A DNA stretch of 41,122 nt from Pseudomonadales bacterium (GTDB taxonomy: Bacteria; Pseudomonadota; Gammaproteobacteria; Pseudomonadales; Azotimanducaceae): contig SKUB01000272.1 in the NCBI GenBank assembly GCA_007122315.1, positions 1 through 41,122 on the forward strand, in the 5' to 3' direction. The notes beneath the pieces were generated by a model. The model was not told the DNA's origin. It searched no databases and was given only the letters and a program-made list of their open reading frames with translations. Every line of letters starts with the position of its first letter. The stretch's first letter is position 1. Shown in pieces: positions 4,690 to 13,870 of this stretch. Both the position numbers and the translations under genes were made by a program.

Positions 4690-5445
4690 ATGGCGGATGA
4701 CCAGGCAGGCAGGGCCAAGCTCTACCGGATGCAGACCGACGAGCACCTGTGCCCATTCGGTTTGAAAACGAAGGATCTGCTCGAGCGGTACGGTTTCGAA
4801 GTAGAAGATCACACCTTGACCTCCCGAGATGCCATCGACGCGTTCAAGCGGGAGGCGGGCGTCGACACGACGCCGCAGGCCTACATCGGCGGCGCTCGAG
4901 TCGGTGGCTACGAAGACGTGCGCGCCTTTCTTGATCTGTCCGTTGTGGACGAGGATGCCACCAGCTACCTGCCCGTGATCGCGCTGTTCGGTGTCGCCTT
5001 GCTGATGGCGCTGGCCATCGCATCCGTGGCACTCGAAACACTGCTCACTATCCGTACCGTGGAGTTCTTCGTGGCCACCGCCATGGTGCTGCTCGGGCTG
5101 CAGAAGCTGAAAGACTTAGAGTCGTTTAGCACCATGTTCCTGAACTACGATCTGCTGGCGCAGCGTTACGTACGCTATGGATACGTCTATCCCTTCGCCG
5201 AGACCCTGGCCGGCCTGCTGATGCTGGCGGGTGTCCTGATCTGGGTGGCCGCACCGCTGGCACTGTTCATCGGTAGCATCGGTGCGTTGTCGGTGTTCAA
5301 GGCCGTCTACGTCGATGGCAGGACACTCAAGTGCGCCTGTGTCGGCGGCGACAGCAAGGTTCCGCTCGGTTTCGTTTCGCTCACCGAGAATCTGATCATG
5401 ATCGCCATGGCGCTGTGGATGCCTCTGCGCATGTATGTCCTGTAG
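4690..5445 (+). CDS. glutaredoxin-MauE fusion membrane protein
   Basis: A 251-residue two-domain protein. Residues about 9-85 form a glutaredoxin fold with C21-P-F-G24 (one active-site Cys, the second replaced by Gly), TTPQAYIGG as the cis-Pro/glutathione-binding segment and GGYEDVRAFL. Residues about 95-251 contain four or more membrane helices of the MauE/DoxX-like type and a conserved-looking KCACVGGDSKVPLG cysteine motif near the C terminus. MauE proteins take part in disulfide handling during methylamine dehydrogenase maturation, but no methylamine genes are present here. A strong ribosome site (GGGAGGTGAG) precedes the ATG. The next gene starts 37 bp downstream on the same strand. Likely an inner-membrane thiol-redox protein; the substrate is unknown. 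Confidence 0.85.
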   Translation: MADDQAGRAKLYRMQTDEHLCPFGLKTKDLLERYGFEVEDHTLTSRDAIDAFKREAGVDTTPQAYIGGARVGGYEDVRAFLDLSVVDEDATSYLPVIALFGVALLMALAIASVALETLLTIRTVEFFVATAMVLLGLQKLKDLESFSTMFLNYDLLAQRYVRYGYVYPFAETLAGLLMLAGVLIWVAAPLALFIGSIGALSVFKAVYVDGRTLKCACVGGDSKVPLGFVSLTENLIMIAMALWMPLRMYVL

Positions 5446-6695: not shown

Positions 6696-7016
6696 TCAAG
6701 GGCAGCAATCTGCGCAGCATTCCCGTTGCAGAAAGCCGAGCGTGTCTTCCATGGCGGTGACGTCCGCCCTGCAGATCAATGTGGTGCCCTGGCGTTCCTG
6801 GCTCACCAGGCCCACCTCGATCAGCCGCCGCAGATGAAACGACAGCGTCGAGCGGGGGATGGCGAGCAGCGCCTGCAGGTCGCCGACGGCGAGTCCCGCC
6901 GGAGCGGCACGGACCAGCGCGCGATAGACGCCGAGACGCACCGGACGACCGAGTGCCTCCAGTCGTTCTGCAGTGCGCTCGAGCGCGTCGGGTTGCGTCA
7001 CGCTGCGCGCGCTCAT
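6696..7016 (-). CDS. ArsR-family transcriptional repressor with Cys-rich tail
   Basis: A 106-residue winged-helix regulator of the ArsR/SmtB class: LEALGRPVRLGVYRALV at the N-terminal helix, then IPRSTLSFHLRRLIEVGLV as the recognition helix region and a short wing. It ends in ECCADCCP, with two vicinal cysteine pairs separated by two residues, a plausible thiophilic metal(loid) or redox sensing site. The start at 7016 is chosen because its ATG overlaps the TGA of the upstream gene in an ATGA, the normal sign of translational coupling. A longer frame beginning at 7046 would overlap that gene further. It probably represses its own operon. The inducer (arsenite, antimonite, other thiophile or redox signal) is inferred only from the cysteines. 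Confidence 0.88.
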   Translation of the reverse strand: MSARSVTQPDALERTAERLEALGRPVRLGVYRALVRAAPAGLAVGDLQALLAIPRSTLSFHLRRLIEVGLVSQERQGTTLICRADVTAMEDTLGFLQRECCADCCP

Positions 7017-8299
7017 GGCAGGTCTCCGGCGACATGCGCGGTACACAGCGCTCGAAAGCCTGCGCGGTCCCGGCAGGCTTCAGCGGTGAGTGAAGGATCG
7101 ACCCAGAGAATCGGCGCGAAGCCGGCGCCCTCGTTGCGAAATCCCATCACCTGGCCGGAGTACAACCGAGCCGCGACGAAGATCGGTTCGATGCCGTGGG
7201 TCCAGACCCGGATGTCCACCTTGAATGGCGTCACTCCGGCGGAGACCTTCAGGGACCGCTCCGAAGGTGCCGCGAAGCGCTGGGCGAGATAACCTTCGTC
7301 GAGCAGGGTCTCCCACTTGCGCCGGCTGACTTTGTCGCCCCGATAGACGCCGCGTGAGCCGTAGCCTCGCGTCGGTTTGAAGACGTAGTGGCGGCGTTCG
7401 GTCCAGAGGCGCTCGGCGTTGCCCTGGCCGAGCAGCTCGCAGGGCAGCAGGGTGTCGAGAATGCGCTCACTGTCGATGTGCGCCCGCTGTGTCAGCTCGG
7501 CCAGGCGGCGGGGGTCGCTCAGCTCGATCAACAGCTGTTTCTCGGCAAAGGTCCGGTAGACATCCGGGTTCGGCGCCAGCACGACCTCGTTGGCAAGCCA
7601 CGCTTCGCGCAGGAGTGCGTGTGCAGGGTCGTCGAGGCCGAAGTCGGTGAGACGGTTGTAGACCATGTCGATGGCGCTGTTCGGTCCGAACAACCTGCCG
7701 TTCTCACGGCGCAGGCTGGCGACGTCCATGATCTCCACCGCGATGCCGCGGCGCTCGAGGGCGACGGCTGCCAGGCGCATGTCCAGATACAGTGCCTGAC
7801 TGGCCGGGTCGGCATCGACGATGGCGAGGCGGGACAGTACTCGACCGGGTGCCAGGGTTGCGAATGCGTCGAGCAGTTGCTGTTCCGGTTCGAACCAGGG
7901 TGCCGTGTGGCCGTCGCCGATGGCTTCGAGCAGCAGCGGCTGCAGGAACGCGCCACCGGCGTTGGTGTTGATCTCGATCAGCTTCGGTCCGGAGGTCGTG
8001 AGGTGAAAGTCGAAGCTATTGCACACCCCCGCAGCGCACAGCCTGTCCCGGTCGAGGTCACTGCGTGCCAGCAGCAACTCGCCTACGGCGCGCACCCGCT
8101 CGAAGAGATCGGCCTTCGTCTGTTCAGGAAGGAACAGGGGATGCTCGGCACTGAGCTCGGCAAGGCGGCTGCTGGCCTCGGACACGTCTTCGGCTGGCAG
8201 CCTGGCGGCCACCGCGGCAGTGAGCGCGGAGTCCGCCAGCGGCAGGCAGAAACACTCAGCGTTGAGCCGCTCGATTGCGCCACCCGAACTGCCCGTCAT
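7013..8299 (-). CDS. putative circularly permuted ATP-grasp enzyme
   Basis: A 428-residue protein with no close characterised relative that I recognise. It has ATP-grasp-like motifs in permuted order. The metal-binding type motif LIEINTNAGG lies at 108-116 (E109, N111, N113), whereas the glycine-rich nucleotide-binding stretch FKPTRGYGSRGVYRG comes later (K308), followed by VDIRVW (D362, R364). In ordinary ATP-grasp ligases the Lys/Gly loop precedes the E-x-N motif. Circular permutation is known in glutathionylspermidine-synthase-like families. Expected chemistry is ATP-dependent ligation of a carboxylate to an amine or thiol. It is the first gene of an operon with the ArsR-type repressor (4-bp overlap), so its expression is probably induced by the repressor's ligand. 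Confidence 0.62.
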   Translation of the reverse strand: MTGSSGGAIERLNAECFCLPLADSALTAAVAARLPAEDVSEASSRLAELSAEHPLFLPEQTKADLFERVRAVGELLLARSDLDRDRLCAAGVCNSFDFHLTTSGPKLIEINTNAGGAFLQPLLLEAIGDGHTAPWFEPEQQLLDAFATLAPGRVLSRLAIVDADPASQALYLDMRLAAVALERRGIAVEIMDVASLRRENGRLFGPNSAIDMVYNRLTDFGLDDPAHALLREAWLANEVVLAPNPDVYRTFAEKQLLIELSDPRRLAELTQRAHIDSERILDTLLPCELLGQGNAERLWTERRHYVFKPTRGYGSRGVYRGDKVSRRKWETLLDEGYLAQRFAAPSERSLKVSAGVTPFKVDIRVWTHGIEPIFVAARLYSGQVMGFRNEGAGFAPILWVDPSLTAEACRDRAGFRALCTAHVAGDLP

Positions 8300-8439: not shown

Positions 8440-9981
8440 TCACGCGCCGAGGAAGAGCAGCCCAAGCAGGCCCAGCGCCAGGAGCAGCAGCATGCGACCC
8501 ACGTTCGTCCAGCGCAGCAGCCAGCGCTCGGCGTGGGCGATGCGGCTCAGACGCAACGCGGTCAATCGATGCAGCACGGGGCTGACGACTCCGTCGAGTC
8601 GCGGCAGCGGCCAGGTCACGCGCATCGCGCCGTAGCCGATCGCGAGCCCGAGCAGCACGGGCCAGACCTGCCCGAGGCTGAGGCTCGCCGGTCCGCGGGC
8701 GCCCGGCAGCCACCAGGGCGCCAGCAGCATGGACATCAGCAGCAGCGTCCAGGGCAGCCAGAGACCTGCCGTCAGCGTCCGCGTCGTGCCATATCCAAGC
8801 GCCAGAACACCGAAGCGCAGCATGAGCAGCGTCGTCGCCGTCGCCGAGAACGTCAGCGCCAGTTTGAACGTGCCTGACCAGCCGCCGGCATTGAGCTCCG
8901 CTTCGAGGATCGCCTTCGCCAACGCACCGCTGGTGAACGGCACGCCGATGAGCACCAGCGCCGCGGCGGCCAGCCCCAACAGCACCACGGGGCGAAGCCC
9001 CACCGATGCGGAGGCGAGCACGCCAAGCCCGAGAAAAGCAGCCGCTTTCGCCAGGGCATGATGCCCGGCAAGCAACGCGACTGTGCGATCGTCGAGACTG
9101 CCCAGGGCGACGGCCGCGAGCAGCAGGCCCACCTGGCTCACCGTCGAGAACGCCAGAACCTGCTTCGGATGATCGCGGCTGATGCCCATCAGCGCCCCGT
9201 AGAACACTGCCGCGAAGCCGAGCAGGAGCACCGCAGCTGCCCAGGTGTCCAGCCCGGTCGGATCGGCAGGCAGCAGCCGCAGCCAGCCGAACAGTCCGGC
9301 TTTCACCAGGACGGCGCTCAGCACCGCACTGGCCGGCAGTGGCGCGGCTGCATGCGCCGGGGGCAACCAGAGGTGAACGCCGAGTACGCCGAGCTTGATG
9401 GCGAAGCCGAGTGCGAACGCCGTGAGCGCCAGTCCCCCTGCGCCCGAGGCGGTGAGACTGCCGAAGTCGAGACCGTCCACCGTGGCGGCCGCCGCGATGC
9501 CGGTGAGCAACGCCACCTCGGCGATCGCCATCAGCGTCAGGTAGAGGCGGGCGGCAGGACGGCTGCGGCGCGCGTCCTCCCCCGCCAGCACCAGTCCCCA
9601 GGCGGCAAGGCTGGCGAGCGCGAAGCAGACGTAGAGACTCAGCAGATCCTGAGCCAGCAGCAGGCCAACGCTGCCGCCAAGCGTCGTCAGCCAGGCCGCG
9701 GTGAAAGGCAGGCGATCGGCGCGACCCCGCATCCAGCTCGCGCCGAACAGACCTGCCAGCCACCAGATCAGCGCCGAGAACAGCAGGAAGGCACGTCCGA
9801 GGGCATCGGCTTCGAAGCCGAGCGGACCCAGATGCACTGGCGGGATCGCACCGGGCATCAGGGCCAGCAGCAGCGCGGGCAGCGCCGCCCAGGCTGCGAG
9901 TGCGAGGCCGAGACGCCGACTGCGCGGCCACAGCAGCAGCGCCAGCACCAGCCACGGTGTCAGCAACGCAGCGGCGGTCAT
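8440..9981 (-). CDS. MrpD/MrpA-like antiporter subunit (NuoL/M/N family)
   Basis: A 513-residue, very hydrophobic protein of the proton-translocating NuoL/M/N-MrpA/D superfamily and the last gene of the mrp-type operon. The TM7 Lys (K196 in FAIKLGVLGVHLWLP) and TM8 Lys (K227 in VLVKAGLFGWLR) are present. The glutamate conserved in TM5 of NuoM and MrpD is alanine here (A121 in LYVCFALAS). A further Lys lies in FTSGALAKAILEAE. The start at 9981 is set by an ATGA overlap with mrpD. Longer open frames upstream are antisense or out-of-frame readings of mrpD. It probably fills the role of the N-terminal part of MrpA in the complex; the missing Glu makes its own proton path doubtful. Confidence 0.88.
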   Translation of the reverse strand: MTAAALLTPWLVLALLLWPRSRRLGLALAAWAALPALLLALMPGAIPPVHLGPLGFEADALGRAFLLFSALIWWLAGLFGASWMRGRADRLPFTAAWLTTLGGSVGLLLAQDLLSLYVCFALASLAAWGLVLAGEDARRSRPAARLYLTLMAIAEVALLTGIAAAATVDGLDFGSLTASGAGGLALTAFALGFAIKLGVLGVHLWLPPAHAAAPLPASAVLSAVLVKAGLFGWLRLLPADPTGLDTWAAAVLLLGFAAVFYGALMGISRDHPKQVLAFSTVSQVGLLLAAVALGSLDDRTVALLAGHHALAKAAAFLGLGVLASASVGLRPVVLLGLAAAALVLIGVPFTSGALAKAILEAELNAGGWSGTFKLALTFSATATTLLMLRFGVLALGYGTTRTLTAGLWLPWTLLLMSMLLAPWWLPGARGPASLSLGQVWPVLLGLAIGYGAMRVTWPLPRLDGVVSPVLHRLTALRLSRIAHAERWLLRWTNVGRMLLLLALGLLGLLFLGA

Positions 9982-11456
9982 GACCCCGGCTCCAGGCGCA
10001 CGAACGTCTCGCCGTCGAGTTCGAAGTCGAATGCCCACACGCCCGAGGCGCAGGCCAGAAGGGCGAGGAGCAGCGCGGGCACGAGTAACGCCGGCGTCAG
10101 GACCGGCGGCGGCGAAGGTCCGGGTGCCGGATCGAGCAATGCCAGCTCCAGCAGTCTTCCCAGGTAGGCGAACGTCAGCAGCGTCCCTGCGAGCATGATC
10201 CCCAGCCACCACCAGGCGCCTTGGCTGACCGCGGTCTGCAGCAGCAACCATTTGGCGCTGAATCCCAGCGTGGGCGGCAGGCCGATCAACGCAGCCGAGG
10301 CCAGGATCACCGCCAGCCAGGCCCAGCGGGCGCGCCCGGAAAAGCCCACCAGCTGCCCGATCCGCTCGCTGCCGCTGGCCCTGACCAGGGTGCCGGCCGC
10401 GAGGAACAGCGCTGCCTTCGCAAGGGCGTGATTGGCCAGCAGCAGGGTGCCGCCTGCCAGCACCGGCTCCCGGTTGCCGCTTATTGCCAGAGGAAACACC
10501 AGCATGGCGAATCCGAACTGGGACACCGTGGAGTAGGCCACCAGCATCTTCAGGCGGCGCTGCAGCAACGCCAGCACGCCGCCCCAAAGCAGTGCTCCTG
10601 CACCCAGCACGCCGAGCAGGGTCCCGGCGCCGAACGTCAGCATGCCCGCCAGGGGACCGAACCAGAGTCGCAACAGCAGGTAGAACGCCGCCGCCACCAC
10701 CAATCCGGAGAGCAGCGCGCTGACCGGGGGTTCCGCCCGGCCGTGGGCCCCCGGTAGCCAGAAGTGCAGCGGAAAGATGGCGGCCTTCGCCAGCAGACCC
10801 ACGGTCAGGGCCACGGCACCGGCGCGGCTGCCGGCGTCTTCCACGTCCAGCATCGCGGCGAGCGCATCGAAATCGAGGACGCCGTACTGGCCGTAAAGCA
10901 ATGCCACGCCGAGCAGGTAGATCATCGATCCGAACAGGCCCGCAAGCAGGTAACGCATGGCCGCCTGCAGCGCCATGCGTCGGGCCGACAGGGCCACCAG
11001 CGCCACCGAAGCCAGGGTCATCACTTCCAGCGCCACGTACAGGTTGAACAGATCCGCCGCCACGAACAGCGCGTTGAGGCCGCCCCAGGCGAACAGCCAC
11101 AGGGGCATGAAGACCCGCGCCATGCGCCCCTCGGGACCGGGCCGATGCAGGAAGTAGCCGGCCCCATAGACCGCACCTGCGAGCCCGACCAACGCGGTCA
11201 CGAGCAGCATCACCGTTCCCGACGGCGTGACCTGCCAGTGAATGCCGAGCGGCGCGGCCCAGCCACCGATGCGATGCACGCTGACGCCTTCGAGGTGCAC
11301 ATTGAAGCCCAGCGCCAGCGCGGCGAAGGTCAACAGCAGCGCCGCCGCGAGGGTCAGTGTTCGTGGCTGCCGTCCGCTGGCGAACAGCAGGGTCGCTGCC
11401 GCCAGTGGCAGCGTCACGAGGATGACGACGAGCATTGCGGTGGACGGCAGGCTCAT
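9978..11456 (-). CDS. mrpD: Na+/H+ antiporter subunit D (MrpD/MnhD-like)
   Basis: A 492-residue polytopic membrane protein of the NuoN/MrpD family. The TM5 glutamate (E144 in NLYVALEVMTLAS) and TM7 lysine (K224 in LLAKAAIFPLHFWLPGAH) are conserved. The TM8 lysine usually found in a KxGxY-type segment is replaced by alanine (A255 in GLVVAAAFYLLLR). A later GFSAKWLLLQ segment keeps its Lys. It starts 7 bp after the mrpC stop and ends in an ATGA overlap with the next large subunit. Its role is one of the ion-translocating subunits of the multi-subunit cation/proton antiporter in the inner membrane. Confidence 0.92.
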   Translation of the reverse strand: MSLPSTAMLVVILVTLPLAAATLLFASGRQPRTLTLAAALLLTFAALALGFNVHLEGVSVHRIGGWAAPLGIHWQVTPSGTVMLLVTALVGLAGAVYGAGYFLHRPGPEGRMARVFMPLWLFAWGGLNALFVAADLFNLYVALEVMTLASVALVALSARRMALQAAMRYLLAGLFGSMIYLLGVALLYGQYGVLDFDALAAMLDVEDAGSRAGAVALTVGLLAKAAIFPLHFWLPGAHGRAEPPVSALLSGLVVAAAFYLLLRLWFGPLAGMLTFGAGTLLGVLGAGALLWGGVLALLQRRLKMLVAYSTVSQFGFAMLVFPLAISGNREPVLAGGTLLLANHALAKAALFLAAGTLVRASGSERIGQLVGFSGRARWAWLAVILASAALIGLPPTLGFSAKWLLLQTAVSQGAWWWLGIMLAGTLLTFAYLGRLLELALLDPAPGPSPPPVLTPALLVPALLLALLACASGVWAFDFELDGETFVRLEPGS

Positions 11457-11463
11457 GGCGTCT

Positions 11464-11742
11464 TCAGGGCCGCCGTCGCTCGAGGCGGACGATCAGCCCC
11501 AACGCCACGGCGGTGGTGCTCAGCGCCACCACGATACCGGTCAGCACCATGGCGTGGGGCACGGGATCTACTGCCGTGCCGCTGCGGCCCAGTGTGACCA
11601 GAAGCAGAAACACACCTGTGGTGGCCACGTTCAGCGCCAGCACCTTGCGCAGCAGATGACGGCAGGTCACCAGGCCGTGGGCGCCGATGGCGAACAGCAA
11701 TGCGGACGCCAGCAGGAACAAAGTGCCGGGCGGAAGGCTCAC
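11464..11742 (-). CDS. mrpC: Na+/H+ antiporter subunit C (MrpC/NuoK-like)
   Basis: A 92-residue three-helix membrane protein of the NuoK/MrpC family: LFLLASALLFAIGAHGL as helix 1, LALNVATTGVFLLLVTL as helix 2, then PHAMVLTGIVVALSTTAVAL as helix 3. The PxxMVLTGIVV segment is a hallmark of the family. It starts with GTG at 11742, which overlaps the preceding stop as GTGA and has an excellent AAGGGAGGGG ribosome site inside the end of the upstream gene. In the complex it lies between the B and D subunits and lines part of the lateral ion path. Confidence 0.92.
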   Translation of the reverse strand: MSLPPGTLFLLASALLFAIGAHGLVTCRHLLRKVLALNVATTGVFLLLVTLGRSGTAVDPVPHAMVLTGIVVALSTTAVALGLIVRLERRRP

Positions 11743-12674
11743 TTCCCCCCTCCCTTGATGTCCGTGGGCTCGCCGCCCAGGAACAGGGCCGTGAGCATCA
11801 CGCCGATGGAGAGCCCGGCTGCGATCTCGATGATGGCGATCAGGATCGATGCATGCTGCGGTGGATAGGCAAAAAACGTCCCGACCGCCCACATCAGCCC
11901 GACGGCGACGACCAGGAACGCAAACAGGCCGGCGCCCAGCGCCCAGCGCAGCGGGGCGCCCCGCATCCGCTCCGGTACCTGGGCCCCGGCGAGCAGCGCC
12001 AGGACCAGACCGGCTGCGAGCAGCGCGCCCGCCGGAAACGCGCCCCCAGGCCCGTGGCCCCCGCGCCAGAGCAGATAGAAGGTGCTGAGCACGAACAGCG
12101 GAAACAGCAGGCGCACCAGCGCCGGCAGGGCGGGTGCTGGCAGCCGCGGTTTGCTCGCCAGAACGTCCTGCCCCAATGACCACAGCGCGATGACGGCCAG
12201 CAGCATGACCCCGATCTCCAGCAGCGTGTCCCAGGCGCGGAAGTTGAGGAGTACGGCGGTCACCGGTGAATCGACCCCCGCCGCAGGCATGGCGGCGAGC
12301 ACCGCCTCGCCCAGTCCCGGTGCCGGCAGCGTCAGGGTCACGGCTAGCAGGACCGTCGTGCCCGCGAGGCCCATTGTCAGCCAGGGCAGCGTGGAGAGTT
12401 TCACTACCTTTGGCCGACGGGCTCCGCGCCGTTCCGGTGCGAGGCGCCCCAGCGTCGCCAGCAGCAGCGCGCCGGTGAGCCCGGCGCCCAGAGACGCCTC
12501 GGCAAGCGCGATGTCGGGTGCCTCCAGCCGCACCCAGGCCACGGCCGTGAGCAGGCCGAACATGATGAAGCTGACCACGGCGCGGAACATGTTGCGCGCG
12601 TGCACGCCCTGCCACGCCAGCACGACCATGCTGAACAACAGCAGGGCATCGAAGGTGATCTCGACCGGATGCAT
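11739..12674 (-). CDS. MbhD-MbhE-MrpB fusion subunit (DUF4040 plus MnhB)
   Basis: A 311-residue membrane protein combining three modules. Residues about 5-75 are a DUF4040/MbhD domain with APDIALAEASLGAGL (E59). Residues about 95-170 resemble MbhE (FRAWDTLLEIGVMLLAV). Residues about 185-310 are MrpB/MnhB (FPLFVLSTFYLLWRGGHG followed by PGGAFPAG). In classical Mrp operons the first two modules form the C-terminal part of the long MrpA protein and MrpB is separate. The start at 12674 lies 7 bp after the mrpG stop; a longer reading to 12749 would overlap mrpG and lacks support. The gene is coupled to mrpC by a 4-bp overlap. Confidence 0.88.
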   Translation of the reverse strand: MHPVEITFDALLLFSMVVLAWQGVHARNMFRAVVSFIMFGLLTAVAWVRLEAPDIALAEASLGAGLTGALLLATLGRLAPERRGARRPKVVKLSTLPWLTMGLAGTTVLLAVTLTLPAPGLGEAVLAAMPAAGVDSPVTAVLLNFRAWDTLLEIGVMLLAVIALWSLGQDVLASKPRLPAPALPALVRLLFPLFVLSTFYLLWRGGHGPGGAFPAGALLAAGLVLALLAGAQVPERMRGAPLRWALGAGLFAFLVVAVGLMWAVGTFFAYPPQHASILIAIIEIAAGLSIGVMLTALFLGGEPTDIKGGGK

Positions 12675-12681
12675 CAGGCCG

Positions 12682-12975
12682 TCACCGTTGCCAGGGTCGG
12701 ATGCCGTGGGCGAGGGCGGCGCGCGCAATGAGGCTCGCGCAGGTGGCACCCGAGACGATCACGAGCAGCCAGATCAGCAGCAGCTTCAGTTGCAGTGCCC
12801 CGTCGTCTTCGTGCAGCGCGAGGCCGGCGCAGACCAGACCCAATGCCAGCGTATCGGCCTTGCTGAGCGCATGCAGCCGGGTGAACACGTCAGGGAAACG
12901 CAGCAGCCCCACCGTTCCCGACAGGAAGAACAGCAGGCCAAGGACGATCAGGACGATACCGGCGAGCATGCTCAT
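12682..12975 (-). CDS. mrpG: Na+/H+ antiporter subunit G (MrpG/MnhG-like)
   Basis: A 97-residue protein with three hydrophobic helices and the diagnostic segment GTVGLLRFPDVFTRLHA followed by SKADTLALG. This is the family signature of MrpG/PhaG. The start at 12975 overlaps the mrpF stop in ATGA; a second Met two codons later is possible. MrpG is a small structural subunit needed for assembly of the antiporter complex; it has no catalytic site of its own. Confidence 0.93.
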   Translation of the reverse strand: MSMLAGIVLIVLGLLFFLSGTVGLLRFPDVFTRLHALSKADTLALGLVCAGLALHEDDGALQLKLLLIWLLVIVSGATCASLIARAALAHGIRPWQR

Positions 12976-13259
12976 CGTGACTCTCCCTCGTCATCGGCGG
13001 CGGGATCTTCCGGCCAGGTCCGGCGGACGAACGTCACCACGGCCATGGCCGCGAGAATGGCGAACACCAGCGCCACGTCGAGCAGGGCTTCGATGCCGGT
13101 GGCGCCGTAGAGCAGCAGCAGAACGGCCACCGCTGTCGTCCCCATCAGTTCGCCGCTCAACATGCGATCCGCCGCCGTGGGCCCGCGCAGCACCCGGGCC
13201 AGGGCGACGACCACATTGGCGAGCAGAAACAGTGCGCCGGCCAGATAGAAAACCGTCAT
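12972..13259 (-). CDS. mrpF: Na+/H+ antiporter subunit F (MrpF/MnhF-like)
   Basis: A 95-residue three-helix protein. The RVLRGPTAADRMLSGELMG segment and the acidic residue in ALLDVALVFAILAAMAVV are typical of MrpF, in which the conserved Asp in helix 3 is implicated in ion movement. The C terminus is acidic and cytoplasmic. Both ends are coupled to neighbours by ATGA overlaps (mrpE upstream, mrpG downstream). Confidence 0.93.
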   Translation of the reverse strand: MTVFYLAGALFLLANVVVALARVLRGPTAADRMLSGELMGTTAVAVLLLLYGATGIEALLDVALVFAILAAMAVVTFVRRTWPEDPAADDEGESR

Positions 13260-13801
13260 CGCTGCGAACCTAGGCCAGCACTAGGAGCCAGCTGCAGCGC
13301 GAACAGATCGGCTACGCGCCGCTCCAGGATCGTCAGGATGCGGGTGACCGACGCCGAGGCGGTGAGAACATGGATTTCGATGCCGCGTACGGTGAGCCGA
13401 GTGCTCAGCGTGCCTGGAACCAGGTTGATCAGATTGGCCATGAACACCCGCGCAGGACCTGGCGGCAGGCGTAGCGGATACCCGATCAACACCGGGTCGG
13501 GACGGCGGCGGGGATGCATCGCCAGCACGGCGACCTCCATCGCCCCACGCAGGTTGTACCAGACGAACACCGGCAGAAATCGCAGCAGGCCCATCAGGCT
13601 GAGCCGCCAGACACCGCCGCTGCCGAGCCCGGGACGCAGGCTGGCTGCCACCATGACGGCGGGAACCCCCCAGACCCAGGCACTTGCCCCGCCGCCGGTG
13701 AGCACCCACCAGATCGCTGCCAGCACGGCCACGCGCGCGCCCAGGGCGGGCAGACCCGCAATGAACCGGCGTATGCCTGTGTTGTCGGCCAACCGCGTCA
13801 T
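13256..13801 (-). CDS. mrpE: Na+/H+ antiporter subunit E (MrpE/MnhE-like)
   Basis: A 181-residue protein with N-terminal membrane helices and a soluble C-terminal domain containing ANLINLVPGTLSTRL and EIHVLT, the conserved core of MrpE. It is the first gene of the seven-gene operon. The start is uncertain: ATG at 13801 gives a protein beginning MTRLADN, while ATG at 13837 would add twelve residues and has a weak GAGAG upstream. The gene is divergent from the peroxidase-related gene at 13910, and the 108 bp between contain a small palindrome. It ends in an ATGA overlap with mrpF. Confidence 0.9.
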   Translation of the reverse strand: MTRLADNTGIRRFIAGLPALGARVAVLAAIWWVLTGGGASAWVWGVPAVMVAASLRPGLGSGGVWRLSLMGLLRFLPVFVWYNLRGAMEVAVLAMHPRRRPDPVLIGYPLRLPPGPARVFMANLINLVPGTLSTRLTVRGIEIHVLTASASVTRILTILERRVADLFALQLAPSAGLGSQR

Positions 13802-13870
13802 ATCGATGCAGGGCTCGAACGCAATGAACTGCCGCATGCTCTCACACGCGCGCTTGCTTGAGGCATGATC

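Follow-up and report, generated by a model that had tools for sequence, protein, structure and literature searches.

Probable relocation of the ion-pair acid from TM5 to TM6 in the third antiporter-like subunit of Mrp-type operons, and a clade-specific TM8 lysine-to-alanine change in a neighbouring subunit

Which residues of the antiporter-like subunits are needed in complex I and in Mrp antiporters, and whether protons hop between these subunits, is debated. In the complex I scheme of PMC10212512, the TM5 Glu takes a proton from the neighbour's TM12. NuoL K229 pairs with D178, and E144 and Arg175 form a second pair (PMC9271201, PMC13144422). MrpD Glu137 has been placed on the Na+ path (PMC9568556, PMC7419157), and MrpD Lys250, His333 and Lys337 are described as a triad (PMC9568556). 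DabB2, from the DAB2 CO2-hydration complex, keeps the Lys235/Asp185 pair and carries Ile151 in place of the TM5 Glu; with the Glu restored the growth yield was halved, and the authors suggest an ‘Open’ bias (PMC13144422). As for the TM8 Lys, PMC9802314 reports that its change to Ala in Escherichia coli NuoM leaves 35–55% activity with pumping kept, and that Paracoccus denitrificans K263Q has 18% activity.

Mrp operons have been divided into groups, including a group 3 (PMC5703873), and the layout Mnh/MrpEFGBCD1D2D3 has already been published, named for Verruconatronum alginivorum (PMC13274419). Here we describe an Mrp-type operon from a Pseudomonadales bacterium that shares gene order and subunits with the MrpEFGBCD1D2D3 operons of haloalkaliphiles, D3 standing last, but that lacks D2 and has no TM8 Lys in its D subunit.

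The operon and its key residues

The window, by which we mean the whole stretch of DNA analysed, is 41,122 nucleotides long (contig SKUB01000272.1). On its minus strand, from 13801 to 8440, seven overlapping or near-contiguous genes follow one another in the order E-F-G-B (fused)-C-D-D′:

13256–13801, minus strand: MrpE, PF01899 (query 13256–13822; the ATG at 13801 is our reading)
12972–13259, minus strand: MrpF, PF04066
12682–12975, minus strand: MrpG, PF03334, with TIGR01300 exceeding its cut-off
11739–12674, minus strand: fused subunit B, an MbhD-like (MrpA C-terminal type) domain plus an MnhB domain, PF13244 and PF04039
11464–11742, minus strand: MrpC/NuoK-like subunit C, PF00420 (query from 11772; start read from the sequence)
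9978–11456, minus strand: MrpD-like subunit D, 492 residues, PF00361
8440–9981, minus strand: second antiporter-like subunit D′, of D3 type, 513 residues, PF00361

Pfam matches were thus found for all seven genes, as expected of an Mrp (CPA3) cation/proton antiporter, and the ATG of the last gene overlaps the stop codon of D. The C-terminal part of MrpA is present as the MbhD-like domain joined to MnhB; no open reading frame in the operon corresponds to a full-length MrpA (group 1) or to an MrpA-MrpB fusion (group 2). Judged by gene content, the layout is group 3-like, without full-length MrpA, and the operon encodes a putative Mrp-type cation/proton antiporter, its transport activity being predicted from sequence. 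Elsewhere in the window, 4690–5445 encodes a protein that combines a glutaredoxin domain with a MauE-like membrane domain, and 7013–8299 is a 428-residue open frame with no Pfam match at E ≤ 0.001.

The host genome has eight PF00361 matches, comprising the D/D3 pair, three in a second operon that is divided between contigs C315 and C46, and those of a third operon on C337. No match to dabA (PF10070) was found in this assembly, which is 93% complete, and D had no match among plasmids at E ≤ 1e-60.

The following residues of the two antiporter-like subunits are discussed below, given by codon position:

11025–11027, minus strand: D E144, TM5 Glu
10785–10787, minus strand: D K224, TM7 Lys
10692–10694, minus strand: D A255, TM8 Lys column
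10428–10430, minus strand: D H343, TM11 His
10416–10418, minus strand: D K347, TM11 Lys
10251–10253, minus strand: D K402, TM12 Lys
9619–9621, minus strand: D3 A121, TM5 Glu column
9517–9519, minus strand: D3 E155, TM6
9394–9396, minus strand: D3 K196, TM7 Lys
9301–9303, minus strand: D3 K227, TM8 Lys
8914–8916, minus strand: D3 K356, a Lys of D3

A preliminary description of this locus had named E144, K224 and A255 in D and A121, K196 and K227 in the second subunit, proposing that each subunit had lost a different residue of the proton path. Translation confirmed all six, and in an alignment with E. coli NuoL, NuoM and NuoN they sit in the key columns of TM5, TM7 and TM8, those of NuoM E144, K234 and K265. 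The preliminary description had omitted a Glu of the second subunit one helix away, E155 in TM6.

The D3 class and its TM5 and TM6 columns

The relatives of D′ at ∼40% identity occupy the third place among the antiporter-like genes in operons that close with C-D1-D2-D3, and on sequence grounds D′ belongs to D3, the third subunit of widespread MrpEFGBC-D1-D2-D3 operons; the D3 of PMC13274419 would, to go by gene order, be the same subunit. We define the D3 class by a non-acidic TM5 column, a TM6 acid, a TM7 Lys and monophyly. The 94 D3 sequences (duplicate L081 included) form one clade with support 1.0, and the window D3, which matches the class in its residues, lies inside it. An early tree had placed the D3 of window-type operons as sister to all others, which was not upheld with more sequences. 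With NCBIfam models the best score of D3 is 102.5 bits, against 220.8 for D.

D1-D2-D3 runs occur in all six genus members, the genus carrying an E-F-G-B-C-D1-D2-D3 operon as well, and in ten further genomes (the contig of G130 is cut, and G191 has no detected E, F or G). A scan of genome contigs, using search patterns that did not include TM5 or TM6, kept 80 of at least 576 loci. Class scores were passed by 50 of these (42 D1-D2-D3, six D1-D3, one D1-D2-D3-D3 and one D3 alone), the remainder being either pieces of contigs or relatives at a greater distance. A single open frame encodes D2 and D3 as a fusion in L053, L055 and L074 (two genomes and one named Pseudoalteromonas locus), which suggests that D2 and D3 are adjacent in the complex. 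Two tandem D3 genes follow D2 in L088, L172 and L173.

In a first set, TM5 was never acidic among 22 D3 proteins, and the TM6 Glu (E155) was invariant in D3 and absent from 32 D1 and D2 proteins. Also in that set, D3 residue 133 (window 9583–9585) was His in 16/16 D3 proteins of three-D operons; it is Ala in 6/6 of window type. A larger alignment held 73 D3 proteins, taken at an HMM score > 300, with A 56, S 7, T 7, G 2 and V 1 in the TM5 column and E 72 and D 1 in the TM6 column; the D1 (65) and D2 (59) proteins all had the TM5 Glu and none a TM6 acid. Although the HMM itself includes the TM5 and TM6 columns, a wide gap in score separates these proteins from 23 lower-scoring relatives (190–261), which have TM5 Glu and TM6 Gly. 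A separate class sample (18 D3 proteins from 17 loci) gave TM5 A 9, S 6, T 3; TM6 E 18/18; TM7 K 18/18; and TM8 K 15, N 2, V 1.

Excluding the duplicate L081, identical to the operon of G003, the distinct totals are 90 D3, 64 D1 and 58 D2. The TM5 Glu is absent from 90/90 D3 proteins and a TM6 acid is present in 90/90 (89 Glu, 1 Asp), aligned with D178 of E. coli NuoL; TM7 Lys is kept in 90/90, TM8 Lys in 87/90 and TM12 Lys in 89/90 (one gap). All 64 D1 and all 58 D2 keep the TM5 Glu and have no TM6 acid. In the 73 D3 proteins, the 8 residues to either side of the TM5 column include no acid, and those to either side of the TM6 column no K, R or H. The ion-pair acid has probably moved from TM5 to TM6 in D3: the change reads as an old, family-wide relocation, shared by D3 proteins of different bacterial phyla, in which the key glutamate seems moved, not lost. 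That one path is ‘degenerate’, as the preliminary description put it, is hence doubtful for D3, every distinct member of which has the TM6 acid.

Since D3 is one clade, the swap has a single origin within it. The four DabB proteins compared also combine a non-acidic TM5 column with a TM6 acid and the TM7 Lys (4/4), but they branch separately from D3 in a FastTree tree, built from one trimmed alignment of distant proteins, by which a DabB relationship of D3 was rejected; on that tree the swap arose at least twice, by convergence. DabB differs from D3 in lacking both the TM8 and the TM12 Lys that D3 has, and in its partner, DabA, where D3 has Mrp subunits. DabB2 is not one of the 60 solved sequences listed out of 93, which says nothing against its presence in the set. 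An Arg three residues before the TM6 acid is found in NuoL and in 3/4 DabB proteins but not in D3, so the analogy to DabB2 is incomplete. We recognised no report of the D3 residue pattern among the open-licence papers searched; the family-wide TM5-to-TM6 swap is the new point here.

The predicted D3 structure (mean pLDDT 88.1) has NuoL chains as its best solved matches (Z 43.1, 2.7 Å, 458 residues) and is closer to these than to MrpD (Z 40.3). NuoL and ND5 share with D3 the TM6 acid at the D178 column; NuoL has the TM5 Glu and Arg175 and no TM8 Lys (Thr there in E. coli), and D3 the reverse. On the predicted helices A121 lies in 113–132, E155 in 137–166 and K196 near the end of 182–197. A contact between E155 and K196 would follow from these assignments and from the identity of the E155 column with that of NuoL D178.

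An Mrp-like operon on C337 (L010) has three PF00361 genes, and its last subunit carries Asn at the TM7 Lys column. Similar open reading frames in relatives have TM7 Asn in 5/6 cases (L028, L029, L030, L034 and L036; L035 has Lys). In both operon classes, the aligned sequences suggest, the last subunit seems to have lost one partner of the TM5 Glu/TM7 Lys pair.

The TM8 alanine of subunit D

D fits MrpD in its PF00361 fold and in having the TM5 Glu and the lysines of TM7 and TM12, but not in TM8, where the Lys is absent. Its model (mean pLDDT 92.4) best matches MrpD 7qru_D among solved structures (Z 49.0, 1.9 Å, 466 residues), with the integrative model 9a6h_B tied (Z 48.5). With Bacillus-type MrpD (7qru, 6z16) D also shares the TM11 His/Lys, but Lys250 there is Ala255 here, a placement given as well by phmmer against 7qru_D.

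We call window-type those operons that have two D genes and a TM8 Ala in D. The Ala is found in all five genus members in which D is complete (this count leaves out G002, its contig starting just before D3), and G212 and G553, from the same class and other families, have the same two-D layout and the Ala. It is thus fixed in window-type D, 7/7 in three families, and H343 and K347 are invariant across the seven. Both window-type D (seven sequences, support 0.999) and window-type D3 (eight, 0.998) are monophyletic. The type is rare: a window-type profile scored > 740 bits in 3/369 genomes of the class, the next best score being 466. G212 is the sole genome sampled in its family and order, and in those of G553 one of three genomes is of window type.

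Several explanations of A255 were rejected. The codon is GCG, two changes from a Lys codon, and the same Ala occurs in the relatives (five of five in the genus, plus two other families), so that a sequencing error was rejected. A charged replacement beside A255 was rejected: no K, R or H lies within 7 residues in window-type D, the nearest being R263, 8 residues on. With the missing acid likewise not found near TM5 in D3, a shift by a helix turn was dismissed for both subunits. Nor are these isolated substitutions, both states being lineage-fixed. Pseudogene status was rejected on codon, alignment and dN/dS data; dN/dS is 0.12–0.20 for D and 0.21–0.24 for D3, so that selection on either gene is purifying.

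The TM8 Lys is kept by 61/64 distinct D1. Thr or Met replaces it in 3/65 D1 proteins, and Met in 1/34 further D1 proteins, some of them from the same genomes. The TM8 Lys that the preliminary description expected is not universal, E. coli NuoL having Thr and ND5 using a TM8 His (PMC10212512). Among charged residues conserved in ≥85% of 68 other D1 proteins, a set with one duplicate, only Lys255 is missing from every one of the seven window-type D. Loss of D2 is not supported as the cause, because six two-D operons outside the window-type clade (from Xanthobacter, Paraburkholderia, Azonexaceae, a Proteobacteria MAG, Roseomonas and Rhodoblastus) keep the Lys and form a separate clade. Changes specific to window-type D include R240, the last residue of a short helix (234–240) before TM8 in the predicted model, and A to S at 312, a column in which Ser is usual in D3, which keeps its TM8 Lys (our reading of the invariant S282); from sequence, neither is shown to compensate for the TM8 loss. 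The loss in D is younger and specific to one clade.

Proposed mechanism and alternatives

The reading we favour, with a probability of roughly 0.6, is an antiporter in which the D3 acid has been relocated to TM6 and the proton step of D is bridged by water past A255. The residues, conservation, phylogeny and selection on which it builds are observed; its geometry, gating and transport are inferred. D, the MrpD-like subunit, would sit on the MrpC side and D3, the NuoL-like one, on the distal side, an order C-D-D3 suggested by gene order and the NuoL-like fold. D3 would retain an ion pair, E155 of TM6 being able to pair with K196 of TM7. Having no TM5 Glu, it would have no alternative ‘closed’ partner, so a simpler, always-open type of proton half-channel would be expected, by analogy with the proposal for DabB2. 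In D the E144/K224 pair is kept, which has a role in the Na+ path as well in MrpD, and the proton step from TM7 to K402 of TM12 would probably run through water and the remaining H343 and K347. The partial activity of TM8 mutants and the retention of the TM11 His/Lys make such a path plausible; the 18% activity of K263Q indicates, against it, that TM8 loss is not free.

The preliminary description had supposed that the two subunits might have specialised, with one path degenerate or the pair acting jointly; on such a view D and D3 would share one path or split the work. The lost TM8 Lys of D and TM5 Glu of D3 do flank K402 along the lateral axis, where the scheme of PMC10212512 makes them successive steps from D to D3, and a survey of co-occurrence finds both losses in window-type operons wherever the gene is readable (D 7/7, D3 8/8). 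These operons are one clade, however, so the co-occurrence counts as one event. Outside it the survey goes the other way: D3 lacks the TM5 Glu in two- and three-D operons alike while D1 mostly keeps its Lys, the other two-D operons keep the D Lys (6/6), and D1 with TM8 Thr or Met occurs in three-D operons too (L068, L079 and L098). The facts were right and the linkage mostly not; the idea is only partly supported, and a functional link between the two losses is rather unlikely. A joint effect at the shared point of the lateral axis is possible in window-type operons, resting on that one evolutionary event. It is a doubtful further step that the axis is cut there at two successive points, the D TM8 Lys and the D3 TM5 Glu, leaving K402 isolated. 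Each subunit would then conduct on its own: D would be coupled to the exchange of Na+ at MrpC, and D3 would be a proton channel with a single ion pair, locked open.

D3 might instead not conduct at all, the TM6 Glu serving structure or assembly in what is mainly a structural end piece. It does lack the Glu that in the current model accepts the proton from the neighbour's TM12 (PMC10212512), and its NCBIfam scores set it at a greater distance from described families than D, but the TM7, TM8 and TM12 lysines that D3 keeps almost throughout would be superfluous in a piece with a structural role only, and we consider this reading quite improbable. Neutral decay of the operon in the host lineage, whose function the three-D operon of the genus could take over, was already disfavoured and is very hard to credit: the D and D3 frames are open in every genus member with contigs that include them (D of G002 is unreadable), dN/dS spans 0.12–0.24, and the same states recur in three families.

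D3 is a large natural family that lacks the textbook TM5 Glu and has a TM6 acid, DabB being independently alike, and window-type D is a natural TM8 Lys-to-Ala variant. Should D and D3 prove to be independent conductors, continuous lateral transfer between antiporter-like subunits would not be required for Mrp antiport. Together, D3 and window-type D offer ready-made variants for models of the ion-pair gate and of lateral transfer.
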